IMG/VR virus record: IMGVR_UViG_3300037961_003782
Location: 23,338-44,153 of that record
Length of the DNA: 20,816 nt
Direction: 5' to 3' (one strand)
Origin: a virus
Positions 13,015 through 20,816 of this stretch are shown in pieces. Under the pieces are notes generated by a model. That model saw only the letters and a program-made list of their open reading frames with translations, was not told the DNA's origin and did no database searches. A program made the position numbers and the translations under genes. Position 1 is the first letter of the stretch; every line of letters starts with the position of its first letter.

Positions 13015-13782
13015 ATGGATATTAACGCAATAAAAGCAAGGTTATCCCAACTTCAAGAATCAAATACTCGTGTAAGTAATCTGTGGAAACCATCAGCTGG
13101 TAAAACCCAAATTAGAATAGTACCTTACAAATTCAATAAGGAAAATCCTTTTATTGAATTGTACTTTCATTATCAAATTGGTAAGAAAAATTATCTTTCA
13201 CCAATTTCATTTGGACGTCCTGACCCAATCGAAGAGTTTTCGAAGAAATTGAAAGCTAACGGCAATCGTGATGATTACGCTATGGGTAGAAAGTTAGAAG
13301 CTAAGATGAGAACTTTCGCACCAATCGTGGTTAGAGGACAAGAATCAGAGGGTGTTAAGTTTTGGGGATTTGGTAAAACAGTTTATCAAGAACTGTTATC
13401 TATTAATACCGATCCTGATTACTTTGATATCACCGACTCAATGAATGGTCGTGATATTGTTGTCGAGTTCAAAACAGCAGAAGAATTGGGTGCTCAGTAT
13501 CCTAAAACAAGTATTAGGGTTAAACCTAATCAAACACCGATCACGGAAGATGCTTCTTTAATGGAAAATCTTATGGAGAATCAAAAAGATATCCGAGAGA
13601 TTTATAAAGAGCAGAGTTATGAGGAACTAACATTAGCCCTTGAAAATTGGGTGAATGGTAATTCAGAAAATGATGACGATGCAGATGAACCTACCGAAGA
13701 AAAAACTACAAATGCTCCAGTAGGTAAATCTGATTCAGTTCAATCTGTAACAGATTCATTTGACGATTTATTCAATAGTTAA
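13015..13782 (+). CDS. gp32-like single-stranded DNA-binding protein
   Basis: Protein of 255 residues, the expected size for the T4 gp32 family (T4 gp32 is 301). It coats single-stranded DNA during replication and recombination. The core (about 20-170) carries the family pattern: WKPSAGKTQIRIVPYKF, FIELYFHYQIGKKNYLSPI, and KFWGFGKTVYQELL. The C-terminus is acidic (NDDDADEPTEE) and ends SFDDLFNS, the tail type used to bind partner proteins. T4 gp32 coordinates zinc through three cysteines and a histidine; here the matching stretch is PISFGRPDP (63-71) and the protein has no cysteine at all, so the zinc site is lost. Ribosome binding site AGGAGA at 13002-13007. The gene has its own leader and a terminator behind it, which suits a protein needed in large amounts. 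Confidence 0.85.
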   Translation: MDINAIKARLSQLQESNTRVSNLWKPSAGKTQIRIVPYKFNKENPFIELYFHYQIGKKNYLSPISFGRPDPIEEFSKKLKANGNRDDYAMGRKLEAKMRTFAPIVVRGQESEGVKFWGFGKTVYQELLSINTDPDYFDITDSMNGRDIVVEFKTAEELGAQYPKTSIRVKPNQTPITEDASLMENLMENQKDIREIYKEQSYEELTLALENWVNGNSENDDDADEPTEEKTTNAPVGKSDSVQSVTDSFDDLFNS

Positions 13783-13835: not shown

Positions 13836-14939
13836 ATGAGTACACGAGATGAACTCGCAGGCATTTTAGCCGAAAATCTAAATCAATCATTTAAAGGTAG
13901 TAAAGATAATGTAGCTTTCTTTTTAGATAATGGTGTAACCACACCAACTGATATAAAAGAATTCATATCAACTGGTTCTACAATGTTAGATTTAGCAATA
14001 TCTAATCGCCCGAATGGTGGTATCGCTGTCGGTAGGATTACAGAATTAAATGGATTAGAATCAAGTGGTAAATCTCTACTTGGTGCACATATGTTAGCTG
14101 AAACTCAGAAGAAAGGTGGTGTAGCAGTTTACATAGATACTGAAACTGCAGTAAGCCAAGATTTTCTAAAGGTTATAGGTGTAGATATCAATAGTATGTT
14201 GTATGTTCACTTAGAAACTGTTGAGGATATATTCTCAGCTATAGAACACATAGTAGCTAAAGTACGTGAATCAGATAAAGATAGGTTAGTAACTATTCTT
14301 GTAGATTCATTAGCTGCTGCATCAACTAAAGTTGAGATGGAAGCTGATTATGATAAAGACGGTTGGGCTACATCAAAAGCAATTATCATATCTAAAGCAA
14401 TGAGAAAAATTACCCAAATGATTGGTAGACAAAAAGTTGCTCTTGTATTCACGAATCAACTCAGGCAAAAACTTGGTGTTATGTTTGGTGACCCGTGGAC
14501 TACAAGTGGTGGTAAAGCTTTACCTTTTCACGCTTCAACTCGTGTTAGGTTAAAGAATAAAGGACAGATTAAAGATAGTAAAGGTAATGTAATTGGAATG
14601 ACTATACTTGCTCAGGTTATCAAAAATAGATTAGGTCCTCCACTAAGACAAGCCGAGTTTCCATTATACTTTGAAAGTGGTATAGATGATACAGGTAGTT
14701 GGTTAAAGATATTGAAAGACCATAAACTTGTGAAGCAAGGTGGTGCTTGGTATACTATGAACGATCATAAAGGTAAAGAACTCAAGTTTCAATCTAAAGA
14801 TTGGAATGAGAAATTGGAAGATGAAGAGTTTAAGGAACATTGTTACAATATGATTTGTGAAAAGCTAGTTCTCAAATATGATATGAGTGAACTAGGTATA
14901 GATGATGTTACTGAAACTGAAGATGTAATGGATGATTAA
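13836..14939 (+). CDS. RecA/UvsX-type recombinase
   Basis: Protein of 367 residues. It is an ATP-dependent strand-exchange recombinase: Walker A GLESSGKS (73-80), catalytic E103 in YIDTETA, Walker B LVTILVDSLAA with D157, and TNQLRQKLGVMFGDPWTTSG (206-225), which covers the sensor glutamine Q208 and the DNA-binding L2 loop. The N-terminal STGSTMLDLAIS motif is also family-typical. The acidic tail (TETEDVMDD) may regulate DNA binding. In T4 the homolog, UvsX, works with gp32 on single-stranded DNA to start recombination-dependent replication, and here it directly follows the gp32-like gene. Ribosome binding site AGGAGA (13825-13830). The stop overlaps the next ATG by one base. Sequence features lie between UvsX and bacterial RecA; I did not resolve which is closer. 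Confidence 0.9.
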   Translation: MSTRDELAGILAENLNQSFKGSKDNVAFFLDNGVTTPTDIKEFISTGSTMLDLAISNRPNGGIAVGRITELNGLESSGKSLLGAHMLAETQKKGGVAVYIDTETAVSQDFLKVIGVDINSMLYVHLETVEDIFSAIEHIVAKVRESDKDRLVTILVDSLAAASTKVEMEADYDKDGWATSKAIIISKAMRKITQMIGRQKVALVFTNQLRQKLGVMFGDPWTTSGGKALPFHASTRVRLKNKGQIKDSKGNVIGMTILAQVIKNRLGPPLRQAEFPLYFESGIDDTGSWLKILKDHKLVKQGGAWYTMNDHKGKELKFQSKDWNEKLEDEEFKEHCYNMICEKLVLKYDMSELGIDDVTETEDVMDD

Positions 14940-15940
14940 TGTCTAATGACAACTATATATCCATTCTCAATCAGATAAAAGATAAGTCTAAACAGGATAT
15001 TCACGGCGGCGATGTAGATGATAAAGTATTAATAGTTGATGGTTTAAACACTTTTATTAGAGTGTTTAGTGTTTTGCCAACAATGAATGATAACGGTATA
15101 CACGTTGGTGGGTTGGTAGGTTTTCTTAGGAGTGTAGGTTACGCTATTAATATGTTATCACCAACAAGGGTTGTAATAGTGTTTGATGGTAAAGGTGGTT
15201 CTACTCGTCGCCGGAAAATATTTCCTGAATATAAAGAAAAAAGAACTGGTGCAGTTCGATTGAATAGACAAGATGGTCTTGAATCTGATGATGAAAAAAC
15301 CAATATGATAATTCAGTTGAAAAGATTGTTGAACTATCTTGAGGTTTTACCTGTAAATGTTATGGCAGTAGATAATATAGAAGCTGATGACGTTATAGCG
15401 TACTTAGCAAAAAATAGATTTAAAAAATCTATAATTATGTCTACTGATAAGGACTTCCTACAATTAGTATCGGAAGATATTAAAGTTTGGAGTCCTGTAA
15501 GAAAAAAACTATACGATGTAGATTTAGTTAATGATGAATACAAGGTTCATCCAACTAATTTTATCTACTACAAAATATTAGATGGTGATAAGTCTGATAA
15601 TATAAAAGGTGTTCCGAGATTTGGGTTGAAAACTGCAGTAAAAAAGTTTCCTGAATTATGTGATTCAGAGGACTTCACCTTAGATAAGTTAAAATCAAAA
15701 CTAACTGAACATACTGATTTAATTGATTTAAATTATAGGCTAATGCAGCTGAGTGATGTTGATATATCAGGTAATACAAAAATTAAAATACTTGATTTGA
15801 TAGATAATGTTAAACCAAGATTACAGAAGTTTAAATTTGAGAAGTTATTCTTTGAAGATAGGTTGTTTATGAACCTACCTAATATTGATACTTGGTTAAA
15901 TCAACACTTTCTCAGACTGGATAATTATATGAAAAAATAA
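14939..15940 (+). CDS. FEN-type 5'-3' exonuclease (T4 RNase H-like)
   Basis: Protein of 333 residues with the acidic metal-binding residues of the PIN/FEN nuclease family: D34 in LIVDGLN, D83 in VVIVFDGKGG, E148, D150 and D151 in IEADDVIAYLA, D170 and D172 in STDKDF, then D217 and D220 in GDKSDN followed by IKGVPRFGLKTA (helix-hairpin-helix type, 221-233). RRRKIFPEYKEKR (90-102) is the basic arch region that contacts the substrate. T4 RNase H removes RNA primers during lagging-strand synthesis and is about 305 residues. It is coupled to the recombinase gene by a TAATG overlap. The family A polymerase in this window has no fused 5' nuclease, so this free-standing enzyme could fill that role. 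Confidence 0.9.
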   Translation: MSNDNYISILNQIKDKSKQDIHGGDVDDKVLIVDGLNTFIRVFSVLPTMNDNGIHVGGLVGFLRSVGYAINMLSPTRVVIVFDGKGGSTRRRKIFPEYKEKRTGAVRLNRQDGLESDDEKTNMIIQLKRLLNYLEVLPVNVMAVDNIEADDVIAYLAKNRFKKSIIMSTDKDFLQLVSEDIKVWSPVRKKLYDVDLVNDEYKVHPTNFIYYKILDGDKSDNIKGVPRFGLKTAVKKFPELCDSEDFTLDKLKSKLTEHTDLIDLNYRLMQLSDVDISGNTKIKILDLIDNVKPRLQKFKFEKLFFEDRLFMNLPNIDTWLNQHFLRLDNYMKK

Positions 15941-16120: not shown

Positions 16121-17497
16121 TTGAATCAAGATTCACTTAGCCAATATGGCACTTCATTTCAGAAGAAAATAATAACATCCCTAATATTTAAAAAACCATT
16201 CCTACAAACTATATTTGATATATTAGAATCTAATATGTTTGATAGTGAAGCAGATAAATGGTTAGTGAAACAAACCAAAGAATATTTCTTAGAGTTCAAA
16301 AAAGAGCCAACGTTAGAGGCTTTGAAAATATCTATAGAAGATATACAAGATGATATCTTAAAGACTTCAGTAATATCTAATTTAAAAGATGTCTACAACT
16401 ATCGTGAAGCTGATGATTTAGATTTTGTTCAGAAGAAAATGATTGAGTTTTGTAAGAATCAAAGTTTAAAAAATGCTATATTAAAATCAGTTGATTTGTT
16501 ACAAATTGGTGAATATGATAAGATAAAGACTGTTATAGATAAAGCGATGAAGGCTGGTACATTATCTGATTTAGGACACGATTATATAAATGAACTATTA
16601 TCAAGATTTGAGGAATCCACAAGAGATACAATAAAAACTCCGTGGGATGTAATCAATGATGTTATGGATGGTGGTTTAGGTAAAGGAGAACTTGGAGTTG
16701 TTGTTGCTCCAGCTGGTATAGGTAAGACTTGGTTCTTACAATCGATTGGTGCTGATGCTGTTAAGAGGGGTAAATCGGTAGTGCATTATACACTTGAGTT
16801 AAATCAAGCGTATGTTGGGTTAAGATATGATACTATCTTTACAGGTATTCCAACTGCTAATCTAAAATATAGTATGAGTGATGTAGAAAAGATTATTAGT
16901 AAGCTAACAGGCAATTTGTTGATAAAATATTTCCCAACAAGAACTGCTAGTGTTCAAACTCTTTCTGCTCACTTAAAAAACTTAGAGCTACACGATAAAA
17001 TGCCAGATGTAGTTTTGGTAGACTATGCTGATATACTCAGAGATACGAGTGGTATAAAAGATTACAGGTTACAATTAGGTAACATCTATGAAGATTTAAG
17101 AGGTTTAGCTGGTGAGTATGATATTCCAATATGGACTGCATCACAAGCTAATAGAAGTTCTCTTGAAGAGGATGTTATTGAGGCTGATAAGGTTGCTGAA
17201 TCTTATAGTAAGGTTATGACAGCAGATTTTATTATGTCGGTTAGTAGAAAAGCAACAGATAAGATAGCTAATACAGGTAGGGTTCATATTATGAAGAATA
17301 GGTTTGGACAAGATGGTAATACGTATCCTGCCAATATTAACACAAACGTAGGTAAGCTTGAGGTTTTTGAGGGGGATTCTTGGCAAGGTAAAGAACAAAC
17401 TGAAAAAATGAATTCTGATGAAATGTTGACAGGCTTTCTAAAAAATAAGTATGACGATTTTAAAACTACTGAAAAAAATCTTGATGGATTTGAATAA
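16121..17497 (+). CDS. Replicative DNA helicase (DnaB/gp41-like)
   Basis: Protein of 458 residues, the usual length for DnaB-like and T4 gp41-like helicases, which unwind the fork as hexamers. The N-terminal part (1-150) is helical, as in DnaB. The RecA-like motor follows: Walker A APAGIGKT (196-203; alanine at the first position as in bacterial DnaB), catalytic E226 in YTLELNQ, Walker B VVLVDYAD with D301, the TASQANR motif with Q342 and an arginine-finger candidate R394 in MKNRFGQDG. Start is TTG 16121 with GGAGAG upstream, directly after the stop of the 56-residue gene. No primase is fused or adjacent, so one would have to lie elsewhere. The C-terminus is polar and probably flexible. Confidence 0.88.
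   Translation: MNQDSLSQYGTSFQKKIITSLIFKKPFLQTIFDILESNMFDSEADKWLVKQTKEYFLEFKKEPTLEALKISIEDIQDDILKTSVISNLKDVYNYREADDLDFVQKKMIEFCKNQSLKNAILKSVDLLQIGEYDKIKTVIDKAMKAGTLSDLGHDYINELLSRFEESTRDTIKTPWDVINDVMDGGLGKGELGVVVAPAGIGKTWFLQSIGADAVKRGKSVVHYTLELNQAYVGLRYDTIFTGIPTANLKYSMSDVEKIISKLTGNLLIKYFPTRTASVQTLSAHLKNLELHDKMPDVVLVDYADILRDTSGIKDYRLQLGNIYEDLRGLAGEYDIPIWTASQANRSSLEEDVIEADKVAESYSKVMTADFIMSVSRKATDKIANTGRVHIMKNRFGQDGNTYPANINTNVGKLEVFEGDSWQGKEQTEKMNSDEMLTGFLKNKYDDFKTTEKNLDGFE
17426..17455 (+). promoter_or_regulatory. Candidate promoter inside the end of the helicase gene
   Basis: TTGACA (17426-17431), 18-base spacer, TATGAC (17450-17455). It has the same -35 box and spacer as the promoter at 10417-10446 and would give a leader of about 115 bases before the ribonucleotide reductase gene. 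The -10 box is imperfect and the site is within coding sequence. Confidence 0.35.
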
Positions 17498-17578: not shown

Positions 17579-19588
17579 ATGGATAAATTTCAGTTGTCGG
17601 AAAAGTTTTTGGATAAATTTAAGAGGAAAAAAGCACCTTTCGGTTTTAATGGATTAGGTGAATTAGTATATATGAGAACCTATTCTCGAATCAAAGAGAA
17701 CGGTAAAAATGAGAGATGGTGGGAAACCGTTCAAAGGGTTGTCGAGGGAACATACTCAATGCAAAAAAATTGGATTGAGTCTCACCAATTAGGGTGGAAC
17801 GCGTGGCAAGCACAAAAGTCAGCTCAAGATATGTATGAGCGTATTTTTAATATGAAATTCTTGCCTCCTGGACGCGGGCTGTGGGCGATGGGAACACCAA
17901 TCACAGAAGAAAAAGGATTATATGCCGCCCTAAACAATTGCGCATTTGTTTCAACAAAAACAATAAAAGAAGATTATTCCAAACCATTTTGTTTCCTTAT
18001 GGATGCAAGTATGTTAGGTGTTGGAGTTGGATTTGATACTAAAGGCGCAGGTGAGATTGTTGTTAAAGGTGTAAATAAAGATAGAGCTGAAGAAACATTT
18101 CAAATACCAGATAATCGTGAGGGTTGGGTAGAATCACTTCGTTTACTTTTAGAAAGTTATTTCCACGGAACTGCTCCTATGCAATTTGATTATAGTATAG
18201 TAAGACCAGCTGGAGAACCAATCAAAGGATTCGGTGGAGTTAGTTCAGGTCCTGAACCATTGAAAGAAGTTCACGAAGATATCAGAAAAGTATTAGAAAA
18301 AAATAGTGGTGAACCAATCACAATAACTACGATCGTAGATATAATGAATCTTATTGGTAAGTGTGTTGTGGCAGGTAATGTTAGAAGAACTGCTGAGATA
18401 GTTTTTGGTGACCCACACAATGAAGAATACTTGGATTTAAAAAACTATAAGGTTAATCCACATAGAGAAACATTTGGATGGACATCTAATAACTCTATCT
18501 TTGCAGAACTTGGTATGGATTATACAGAAGCTGCAAAACGTATTGTAGATAATGGTGAGCCAGGTTTTGCTTGGTTAGAAAATATGAGACATTACTCAAG
18601 AATTAAAAATGGTGGTGATGATAAAGATTATAGAGCTATGGGTGGTAATCCTTGTTTAGAGCAAACACTTGAATCATATGAGTTGTGTTGCCTTGTGGAA
18701 ACATTTCCAAGTAACCACGATAGTTTCGAAGATTATGCAAGAACTCTAAAATACGCATATTTATATGCAAAGACAGTTACACTTGGTAGAACACATTGGA
18801 GTGATACTAACAGAGTGATGCTAAGAAACAGAAGAATTGGATGTAGCGTAAGTGGTGTTGCTCAGTTTGTTACAAACAGAGGTATTAATGAATTTAGACA
18901 TTGGTTGGAAGAGGGATATGATGTTATTCAAGAGTGGGATAAGATGTATTCAGATTGGTTTGCTGTACCACGTTCCATCAAAACTACTTCAGTTAAACCA
19001 AGTGGTACAGTCTCATTATTGGCTGGTGCTACTCCAGGCTTACATTATCCCGAAAGTAGATTTTATATTAGAAGAATTAGGTTATCTAAACATTCTGAAC
19101 TAATTGAACCTATGAAGAAAGCAGGTTACAAGATAGAACCTGCATTTGGTTCTGAAGATACAACTTGCGTAGTTGAGGTGCCAGTAGATGTTGGAGAGGG
19201 TATCAGAACTGCAAGTGAGTTATCTATTTGGGAACAATTTAGTTTAGCTGCATTTATGCAACGACATTGGGCTGATAACCAAGTGAGTTGTACGGTTACA
19301 TTCGATCCTAAAACAGAGGGTGAACAGATACCTCAAGTGTTAAATTATTTTCAATATCACTTGAAAGGTATATCGTTATTACCAAGACACGATTATGGTG
19401 CATATCCACAAATGCCATATGAAGCTATAGATGAAAAAGAATACAATAAACAAATGAAAAAACTAGGTAAGTTGTCTTTTGGTGTTATCAAAAATGAGGA
19501 AGCTGAAATAGATAAATTCTGTAATAATGATAGCTGTGAAGTTCCATCATTTACAGGTGATAATGATGACCAAGAATATGCCAATTAA
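17579..19588 (+). CDS. Adenosylcobalamin-dependent ribonucleoside-triphosphate reductase (class II, monomeric type)
   Basis: Protein of 669 residues that converts ribonucleotides to deoxynucleotides. The catalytic core is complete: NNCAF with C121, NPCLEQTLESYELC with N357, C359 (site of the thiyl radical), E361 and C370 exactly 11 residues on, as C408/C419 in the Lactobacillus leichmannii enzyme, then PSGTVSLLAGATPGLHYPES (474-493). The C-terminal redox pair is CNNDSC (C648, C653), matching the CxxxxC of that enzyme. No small radical-generating subunit is next to it, as expected for a class II enzyme that uses coenzyme B12. It is shorter than the Lactobacillus protein (739). Start ATG has GGGAG at 17565-17569. 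It would supply dNTPs for phage replication and depends on the host's cobalamin supply. Confidence 0.92.
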   Translation: MDKFQLSEKFLDKFKRKKAPFGFNGLGELVYMRTYSRIKENGKNERWWETVQRVVEGTYSMQKNWIESHQLGWNAWQAQKSAQDMYERIFNMKFLPPGRGLWAMGTPITEEKGLYAALNNCAFVSTKTIKEDYSKPFCFLMDASMLGVGVGFDTKGAGEIVVKGVNKDRAEETFQIPDNREGWVESLRLLLESYFHGTAPMQFDYSIVRPAGEPIKGFGGVSSGPEPLKEVHEDIRKVLEKNSGEPITITTIVDIMNLIGKCVVAGNVRRTAEIVFGDPHNEEYLDLKNYKVNPHRETFGWTSNNSIFAELGMDYTEAAKRIVDNGEPGFAWLENMRHYSRIKNGGDDKDYRAMGGNPCLEQTLESYELCCLVETFPSNHDSFEDYARTLKYAYLYAKTVTLGRTHWSDTNRVMLRNRRIGCSVSGVAQFVTNRGINEFRHWLEEGYDVIQEWDKMYSDWFAVPRSIKTTSVKPSGTVSLLAGATPGLHYPESRFYIRRIRLSKHSELIEPMKKAGYKIEPAFGSEDTTCVVEVPVDVGEGIRTASELSIWEQFSLAAFMQRHWADNQVSCTVTFDPKTEGEQIPQVLNYFQYHLKGISLLPRHDYGAYPQMPYEAIDEKEYNKQMKKLGKLSFGVIKNEEAEIDKFCNNDSCEVPSFTGDNDDQEYAN

Positions 19589-19682
19589 GATTTCGCATAC
19601 CAAGAAACAGGCAGTAGACACACCTGTAGAAAAATGTGTCGTACATAACAATAATGAGGAGATTCGATATGAGAAATCGTAA
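19563..19682 (+). CDS. Possible tiny ORF bridging the reductase and receptor genes
   Basis: ATG 19563 to TAA 19680-19682 gives 39 residues beginning MMTKNMPIKISHTKKQ. It overlaps the reductase gene by 26 bases and the receptor gene by 14, so it spans the otherwise empty 80-base gap; such overlaps are normal in this window. The product has no recognised motif and the ribosome binding site (AGGTGA about 5 bases upstream) is moderate. It may equally be a chance frame. Confidence 0.3.
   Translation: MMTKNMPIKISHTKKQAVDTPVEKCVVHNNNEEIRYEKS
19617..19640 (+). promoter_or_regulatory. Small hairpin in the gap before the receptor gene
   Basis: GACACA (19617-19622) can pair with TGTGTC (19635-19640) around a 12-base loop. 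It lies 28 bases before ATG 19669. It has no T-run. The gap is too short for a known cobalamin riboswitch, and no such box is visible. Confidence 0.25.
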
Positions 19683-20816
19683 TCTAATTGCTATGATGAT
19701 GACTCTACTAACACCGATGATGTTGTTCGCACAATCGGTAACGGGAAAAGTTACATCAGAAGCAGGAGACCCATTAGCTAATGCTAATATTGTTGTAGTA
19801 GGTACTGATAAGGGTACGGTAACCGATGAGGGTGGTATGTTTATGCTCGATTTAGGTGCTGGAAGCTACACAATTACAGCTACAGTTATTGGATTTAAAC
19901 CACAATCACAAATGGTTCAGTTAAATGAGGGCGATAATGATTTAACAATGGCTTTTGTTTTACCACTAAACGTGATTGAATTATCAGACGTTGAAGTTTT
20001 GGCTTCTCGTGCTGATGAAAAAACACCTGTTGCTTACTCGATGGTAACTAAGGAAGATATGGAAGTTCGTCTTGGTTCTCAAGATATCCCTATGGTTCTT
20101 AATACAACTCCATCAGTATATGCAACACAACAAGGTGGTGGTGCGGGTGATGCCCGTATTAATGTTCGTGGATTCAACCAGAGAAACGTAGCAGTTATGA
20201 TTAACGGTGTACCGCAAAATGATATGGAAAACGGGTGGGTATACTGGTCTAATTGGGATGGTGTTGGAGATGCCGCTGCATCAATTCAGATGCAACGTGG
20301 TTTATCAGCTGTCAACTTGGCTACACCATCTATTGGTGGAACTATGAACATCATAACCGACCCTGCCGCTTTCGAAAGAGGTGGTAAGTATAAGCAAGAG
20401 TTTGGTGCAGGTGGTTTCTTGAAAACTACTCTGAACTATAATACAGGTCTTATGATGAACGATAAGTTAGCACTTAGTGGTACACTTGTTCGTAAGACTG
20501 GTGATGGTATTATTGATGCTACTTGGACAGATGCTTGGGCTTACTATATGGGTGCTACATATGCAATCAACGATGGACACAGAGTTGAAGCATACATAGT
20601 TGGCGCTCCACAAAGACACGGACAGAATCTATACAAACAGAATATCGCTACTTACTCACAGAAGTTAGCTGGTGATATCGATGGATATGATGTAAGTGCT
20701 TTCGCTGAAGGCGCTAAGTTCGAAACCGAAGCTGGTAGAACATTCAACCAAAATTGGGGCTCAGTTAGTTCAGACTACAAGGGTAAACAATATTGGTATA
20801 TGTATGGTGTCGGTGG
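19669..20816 (+). CDS. TonB-dependent outer-membrane receptor (3' partial)
   Basis: The frame is open from ATG 19669 to the window edge: 382 codons seen. Residues 1-21 form a signal peptide (MRNRNLIAMMMTLLTPMMLF, cleavage after A21). Residues 23-100 are a carboxypeptidase-regulatory-like domain (VTGKVTSEAGDPLANANIVV, GTVTDEGGMF, ITATVIGFKPQ). Residues 104-230 are the TonB plug: LSDVEVLASR as a possible TonB-box region, INVRGFNQRNVAVMINGVPQ, IQMQRGLSAVNLATPSIGGT, MNIIT. The rest is the start of the beta-barrel. Such receptors move iron complexes, vitamin B12 or glycans across the outer membrane using TonB energy; the N-terminal extension is typical of Bacteroidota and relatives. Ribosome binding site AGGAG at 19657-19661. 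It follows the phage reductase by 80 bases on the same strand, and its GC content in samples I counted (about 44%) exceeds that of phage genes here (about 33%), which suggests a host origin. The substrate is unknown. Confidence 0.9.
   Translation, partial: MRNRNLIAMMMTLLTPMMLFAQSVTGKVTSEAGDPLANANIVVVGTDKGTVTDEGGMFMLDLGAGSYTITATVIGFKPQSQMVQLNEGDNDLTMAFVLPLNVIELSDVEVLASRADEKTPVAYSMVTKEDMEVRLGSQDIPMVLNTTPSVYATQQGGGAGDARINVRGFNQRNVAVMINGVPQNDMENGWVYWSNWDGVGDAAASIQMQRGLSAVNLATPSIGGTMNIITDPAAFERGGKYKQEFGAGGFLKTTLNYNTGLMMNDKLALSGTLVRKTGDGIIDATWTDAWAYYMGATYAINDGHRVEAYIVGAPQRHGQNLYKQNIATYSQKLAGDIDGYDVSAFAEGAKFETEAGRTFNQNWGSVSSDYKGKQYWYMYGVG

Follow-up and report, generated by a model that had tools for sequence, protein, structure and literature searches.

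The question raised by this locus is whether a gene for a TonB-dependent receptor (TBDR), found at the end of a phage contig directly behind replication genes, belongs to the phage and, if so, what a phage does with an outer-membrane transporter. The window, which is the whole stretch of 20,816 nucleotides that was analysed, is the 3'-terminal 20.8 kb of a 44,153-base virus record (IMG/VR IMGVR_UViG_3300037961_003782, positions 23,338 to 44,153). Its plus strand, on which the genes, protein domains, ribosome-binding site, and pseudoknot described below lie, encodes a gp32-like single-stranded DNA binding protein (13015..13782; PF08804, PHROG 1192/224), a UvsX/RecA-like recombinase (13836..14939; PF00154, PHROG 97), a 5'-3' exonuclease (14939..15940; PF02739, PF01367), a DnaB-like replicative helicase (16121..17497; PF03796, PHROG 19), and an adenosylcobalamin (AdoCbl)-dependent ribonucleotide reductase (RNR) (17579..19588; PF17975, PF21995, TIGR02505, PHROG 367) that scores as the class II RTPR type (TIGR02505, 368 bits compared to a cut-off of 340). 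The TBDR ORF (19669..20816), identified by its reading frame, Pfam domains, and full-length relatives, starts with an ATG 80 nt after the RNR stop codon. Because the window is the 3' end of its record, the ORF is truncated to its N-terminal 382 aa, its 3' end is open at the contig edge, and the barrel part is cut off; full-length relatives are mostly 905-954 aa (about 905-950 aa) long. It contains a signal-peptide-like segment judged from its sequence (MRNRNLIAMMMTLLTPMMLFAQ; 19669..19734, end approximate), a carboxypeptidase-regulatory-like N-terminal domain (19735..19998; PF13715, PF13620), and a TonB plug domain (20017..20343; PF07715), with Pfam E-values of 4e-17 for CarbopepD_reg_2, 9e-16 for CarboxypepD_reg, and 6e-15 for TonB Plug. 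A ribosome-binding site, GAGGAG (19656..19661), is placed 7 nt 5' of the ATG by its sequence and by the leader spacing in relatives. The first-pass annotation had described this domain order, a good ribosome-binding site, and a same-strand position 80 bases downstream of replication and RNR genes, and all three descriptions were borne out.

That annotation also named a main competing explanation, in which a chimeric assembly or a prophage/host junction at about 19590-19670 joins phage DNA to a bacterial gene. The gene does lie at a contig end, it is GC-richer than its surroundings (0.40 compared to about 0.35), and it is host-like. However, the same RNR-TBDR junction recurs in >100 loci. Past the receptor, the sequence returns to phage genes for DNA polymerase and clamp, a 164,845-base record being among the examples. 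This explanation is ruled out by independent contigs covering both junctions, and we give it a negligible probability. A scan of IMG/VR found 308 stretches that encode relatives of the TBDR, with 69-99% identity among the best 80 of the 308. Many viral contigs share one order on one strand: helicase, AdoCbl-dependent RNR, TBDR, DNA polymerase B, clamp, and clamp loader. The first-pass annotation had proposed looking for phage genes beyond the receptor, and 3' of the TBDR in relatives we find DNA polymerase B, a clamp-like gene, and a gp44/RFC-like clamp loader. Phage genes thus lie on both flanks, and the receptor therefore sits inside the replication region, where a T4-like module (gp32, UvsX, gp41-like helicase, gp43-like polymerase, clamp, and gp44-like loader) is present in one cluster. 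The best matches of the DNA polymerase are T4-like phages and Microcystis phage Mel-JY01 (47%).

Among loci with a related RNR and >600 nt past its end, 115 have a TBDR as the following gene, 5 a glutamine synthetase, 3 a DNA polymerase, and 1 an unlabelled ORF; these counts are not independent because some contigs were fetched twice and loci were chosen by TBDR or RNR similarity. A less biased sample was collected through the DNA polymerase, from loci that reach 62% identity and extend far enough upstream; it contains 45 loci with the TBDR and 5 without it. INPHARED phages give only distant TBDR matches of at most 39% identity, none covering 80% of the query. We conclude from these comparisons that the TBDR truly belongs to, and is widely retained in, a lineage of T4-like marine phages, and the suggestion that it is a routine gene of that lineage holds, given the same junction across many viral contigs.

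Empty sites occur in a few close relatives, where the RNR runs straight to the polymerase. In two such loci (L116 and L134), the RNR stop codon is followed at once by a promoter-like sequence, TTGACT-17-TATATT, and then by the DNA polymerase gene. In receptor loci, a terminator-like hairpin comes after the TBDR (L109 14834-14854), and the polymerase has the same kind of promoter 5' of it, which a simple pattern finds in 30 of 50 polymerase leaders. This arrangement is consistent with leader, receptor, and terminator forming a unit placed between the RNR and the polymerase promoter, and the empty sites indicate that the receptor is dispensable in some relatives. A GlnII-like glutamine synthetase lies between the RNR and the receptor position in L004 (8918-9922) and also in L003, L006, L097, and L140; the TBDR follows it in the four of these five loci that are long enough to show it. 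Replication clusters of relatives also contain a Mom-family protein (PF25680, DNA modification; L109:18207-18968), and PADLOC matched no defence family.

The nearest cellular relatives of the N-terminal 382 residues come from Candidatus Neomarinimicrobiota (NCBI Fidelibacterota; "SAR406") and are mostly 57-71% identical. Each of six examined Neomarinimicrobiota genomes contains one strong ortholog, their other TBDRs reaching at most 34-35%, and a strong ortholog is present, nearly always as a single copy, in 91 of 245 genomes of the phylum. All phage receptors form one fully supported clade inside Fidelibacterota, both in a 106-sequence tree and in a careful 51-sequence tree. The tree indicates that the phage TBDR is a descendant of a Ca. 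Neomarinimicrobiota (Fidelibacterota) receptor, and the search of phage and host genomes and the donor tree that the first-pass annotation had proposed name this phylum as the donor. Exchange of the gene between phages is likely, because TBDR distances correlate only weakly with those of other phage genes. The single-copy CarboxypepD_reg/TonB receptor of Ca. Neomarinimicrobiota resembles the phage TBDR in domains, length class, and invariant plug motifs; by contrast, the phage copies form their own clade, lie in a replication cluster, and follow a leader pseudoknot that is absent from the host genes. One receptor on a Neomarinimicrobiota MAG contig (L145:986-3736) is nested in the phage clade (support 100/100 and 96/97), lacks the pseudoknot, and lies between a divergent DegT-like gene and a second, partial TBDR; this contig is possibly a phage-to-host transfer, or a phage contig. 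Two further hits that were nominally cellular (L142 and L143) are contigs of the phage lineage within public MAGs labelled Euryarchaeota and Flavobacteriales and represent binning contamination.

Several features suggest that the phage receptor still works. Median dN/dS is 0.15 among phage copies of the TBDR, compared to 0.08-0.11 in replication genes, which indicates that the TBDR is under purifying selection. Phage-host identity in relatives is 90% in the plug, 63% in the strands, 61% in the long loops, and 63% in the linker expected to contain the TonB box. The plug motifs are invariant in phage and host, and this linker before the plug, ELSALEVLASRADEKTPVAYT, is kept in both. The long loops are as conserved as the strands, which suggests that the same ligand is still handled. 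Membership of the TBDR class is supported by the plug (PF07715) and by a modelled barrel that matches FhuA, FecA, Fiu, and PqqU in Foldseek; the AF2 model forms a TBDR barrel, with a plug that is poorly modelled and loops for which the model is too weak, and its fold matches are generic (siderophore, citrate, copper, and PQQ receptors). An assignment to SusC was rejected, since scores of 55.7-61.7 bits to the SusC/RagA family TIGR04056 fall far below its cut-off of 368; no SusD-like gene was recognised, without a profile search, among the conserved neighbours. The neighbourhood of the host ortholog was uninformative about substrate. Overall, the phage receptor is apparently functional. Of the roles that had been proposed for it, boosted nutrient uptake fits best with the purifying selection and the conserved plug, TonB-box region, and long loops. 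Models of the B12-receptor and SusC families gave no support for placing it in either.

The adjoining RNR suggests a specific cargo, in that the receptor could supply B12 to an AdoCbl-dependent enzyme of the RTPR family that almost always adjoins it. This proposal is hard to reconcile with the absence of a BtuB-type model among the NCBIfam matches of the TBDR, of a cobalamin riboswitch from the window, eight host loci, and 140 kb of a relative, and of B12 genes around the host ortholog, and with receptor copies that exist away from the RNR. We consider cobalamin import very improbable, and a B12-receptor assignment was rejected on the missing model match and riboswitch. A less remote, though still unlikely, reading is superinfection control. 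TBDRs are classic phage receptors, and a phage version could serve not to feed the infection but to modify, saturate, or substitute for the surface receptor on which competing phages rely. Docking of TBDRs with Crassvirales tail spikes is reported (PMC10569736), and a phage copy 57-71% identical to its host orthologs could be functional yet antigenically different. However, long loops as conserved as the strands and a low dN/dS are easier to explain by a retained ligand than by an altered surface, and the loop conservation argues mildly against the changed surface specificity that had also been suggested. Moreover, the receptor fold has its normal, complete length, unlike known exclusion proteins, which are usually small lipoproteins.

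A second feature that sets the phage gene apart is its leader. A short peptide conserved in the RNR-TBDR gap was considered and rejected, because the reading frame is not conserved; the conservation, being in nucleotides only, led to an H-type RNA pseudoknot of 34 nt (19607..19640), identified by a structure descriptor, covariation, and a covariance model. In the window, stem S1 pairs 19607-19611 with 19623-19627, stem S2 pairs 19617-19622 with 19635-19640, and an A-rich loop occupies 19628-19634. The consensus from compared RNR-TBDR gaps, ACAGG-CAGNN-GACACA-CCTGT-NNAAAAA-TGTGTC, shows the two interleaved stems and the A-rich loop. The descriptor found the pseudoknot in 126 of 129 phage receptor leaders, in none of 71 host leaders, and in none of 200 shuffled sequences; of the three leaders missed, L047 has the pseudoknot by the covariance model, L110 has a one-mismatch form, and L093 is degenerate. 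The covariance model scores the window pseudoknot at 57.8 bits. Among 48 distinct sequences, 96.2% of cells pair and 6 of the 11 pairs changed on both sides, as in the S1 alternatives ACAGG/CCTGT, ACTGG/CCAGT, and ATAGG/CCTAT and the S2 alternatives GACACA/TGTGTC, GACGCA/TGCGTC, GGCACA/TGTGCC, and AGCACA/TGTGCT. The covariation score of 0.230, compared to 0.101 for shuffled alignments, was reached by none of 500 shuffles, and slid controls were far lower, in tests that count sequences and not independent events. The compared leaders indicate that this is an H-type pseudoknot with both stems supported by compensatory changes. Rfam gave no match at gathering thresholds and one meaningless match (E 3.1) in a permissive search, and nested folding of the window leader by a program that cannot form pseudoknots was not significant (z -1.05). 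The pseudoknot is flanked by a 16-nt inverted repeat (88% complementary; window 19584-19599 and 19668-19683) that could base-pair with the region of the start codon. Visual comparison shows no clear conservation of this repeat in relatives.

The pseudoknot keeps close company with the receptor. A TBDR follows all 228 pseudoknot matches with room downstream, and 24-37 nt (median 29) separate the last stem from the ATG, whereas the distance from the RNR stop codon varies. This single-gene association and near-fixed spacing to the ATG, together with the varying spacing to the RNR, imply that the pseudoknot belongs to the phage receptor gene. With the covariance model, each receptor-bearing record searched had one copy, except L093 and L145, which lack the motif, and nothing convincing was found elsewhere in the 164,845-base record. 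Where the receptor follows a glutamine synthetase (L003, L004, and L006), the pseudoknot keeps its place beside the receptor. Four loci (L022, L028, L030, and L031) have both pseudoknot and receptor away from a related RNR, among other small phage-like genes, and these copies imply that the leader travels with the receptor. A host origin of the RNA was rejected on its absence from the 71 host leaders and, by the covariance model, from 585 kb of host loci; a scan of 245 Neomarinimicrobiota genomes, run without a positive control, was also empty. Likewise, an RNR frameshift signal was rejected because the RNR-stop distance varies, the TBDR-start distance is nearly fixed, and the element occurs without a preceding RNR, and a terminator was rejected because the pseudoknot has no T-run after it. 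Control most likely acts on translation, since the RNA lies directly against the ribosome-binding region with no terminator behind it.

What the pseudoknot would respond to can be framed by the T4 gene 32 operator, a pseudoknot of about 28 nt with unstructured RNA after it that contains the ribosome-binding site (PMC535899, PMC3014915). The T4/RB69 operator is likewise an H-type pseudoknot in a 5' leader of a T4-like phage, but the RNA described here precedes a captured receptor gene instead of gene 32 and differs in sequence. If the receptor leader were a protein operator of this type bound by the phage single-stranded DNA binding protein, and not a metabolite sensor, it would tie receptor synthesis to the amount of free single-stranded DNA. 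Its placement relative to the ribosome-binding site is the same, its size is similar (PMC535899, PMC3014915), and the phage encodes a gp32 homolog. We hold this reading to be possible but doubtful, for no such pseudoknot precedes the phage's own gp32 gene, the sole copy being that before the TBDR, and half of the pseudoknot columns are invariant, which exceeds the needs of a structure-only operator. Compact pseudoknots with A-rich loops are known in several riboswitch classes. The strong sequence conservation and one-gene association lean to a metabolite riboswitch, while the T4-like setting with a gp32 homolog leans to a protein operator. We give roughly even chances to the broader proposal that the pseudoknot is a new phage RNA class, either a riboswitch for the imported nutrient or an operator for a phage protein, by which a lytic phage would sense the state of the cell and adjust its importer. 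A 2010 review considered the T4 gene 32 pseudoknot maybe the sole viral pseudoknot in translational autoregulation (PMC3014915), and the receptor leader is a strong candidate to be a further pseudoknot by which a phage controls translation. The manA, wcaG, and PhotoRC-II RNAs are structured cis-regulatory elements from marine samples and T4-like cyanophages that lie by metabolism genes (PMC2864571); the present RNA differs from them in structure and gene.

The reading that we favor, and hold to be somewhat probable, is that the TBDR is a nutrient importer that the phage has captured, regulates at the level of translation, and makes while it replicates. The TBDR would be transcribed by read-through with the RNR in the replication phase, and the pseudoknot, which ends about 29 nt before the start codon, would gate its translation on a signal that may be a metabolite, as in a riboswitch, or a protein, as for the T4 gene 32 pseudoknot bound by gp32. 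The receptor would then insert in the host outer membrane, couple to host TonB, and import the nutrient taken up by the host ortholog, which would be limiting for phage synthesis. This arrangement suggests that, during infection, these phages produce a nutrient importer of their own and control it. The phage retains a transporter of >900 residues as a near-core gene and supplies its own dedicated regulatory RNA, which does not come from the host, and phage remodelling of nutrient uptake at the host surface becomes testable. The closest precedents are SusC-like TBDRs in the marine megaphage Mar_Mega_1 and in LR745206, suggested to raise carbohydrate uptake (PMC9723777). These are likewise marine-phage TonB-dependent receptors proposed to raise uptake during infection, but the LR745206 protein has about 27% identity to the present TBDR over half of the query and belongs to a different phage group, and no comparable conserved operon position or RNA was reported for either (PMC9723777). 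What sets the present case apart from known ones is the receptor family, the host phylum, the near-core conservation, and the RNA element. No description of this phage receptor gene or RNA was found in the open literature (subscription papers and preprints lay outside the scope), and the leader RNA is apparently undescribed.

SAR406-type bacteria are uncultured and widespread in the ocean, and to our knowledge little is known of their phages. One Fidelibacterota genome includes a 7,552-base contig whose tmRNA (76% identity) and one of whose proteins (90% identity) match counterparts in a long relative of the window phage. The tmRNA does not resemble the tmRNAs on chromosomes of the phylum, which is what a phage origin of the contig would predict. 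The genome that holds it lacks a strong TBDR ortholog, and the contig falls short of proof because binning errors are common. Together, the ancestry of the TBDR and this phage contig support Fidelibacterota as host. The phage lineage is common and appears to infect SAR406-type bacteria, and the receptor and its leader provide a marker gene and an RNA signature for it. The 164,845-base relative (G246) encodes a tmRNA (L236:9378-9797; tag VNDEPTYAYAA), which is unusual for a phage and of which the contig in the Fidelibacterota genome has the 76% identical copy, and a tRNA-Gly (L236:10909-10981). The first part of the window's own record encodes adjacent large proteins that by eye resemble carbamoyltransferase/glycosyltransferase fusions (L223:244-4131), and two neighbouring proteins, probably tail fibres, that combine long collagen-like GxxGxQGP repeats with a C terminus resembling an intramolecular chaperone (L222:8126-10847).
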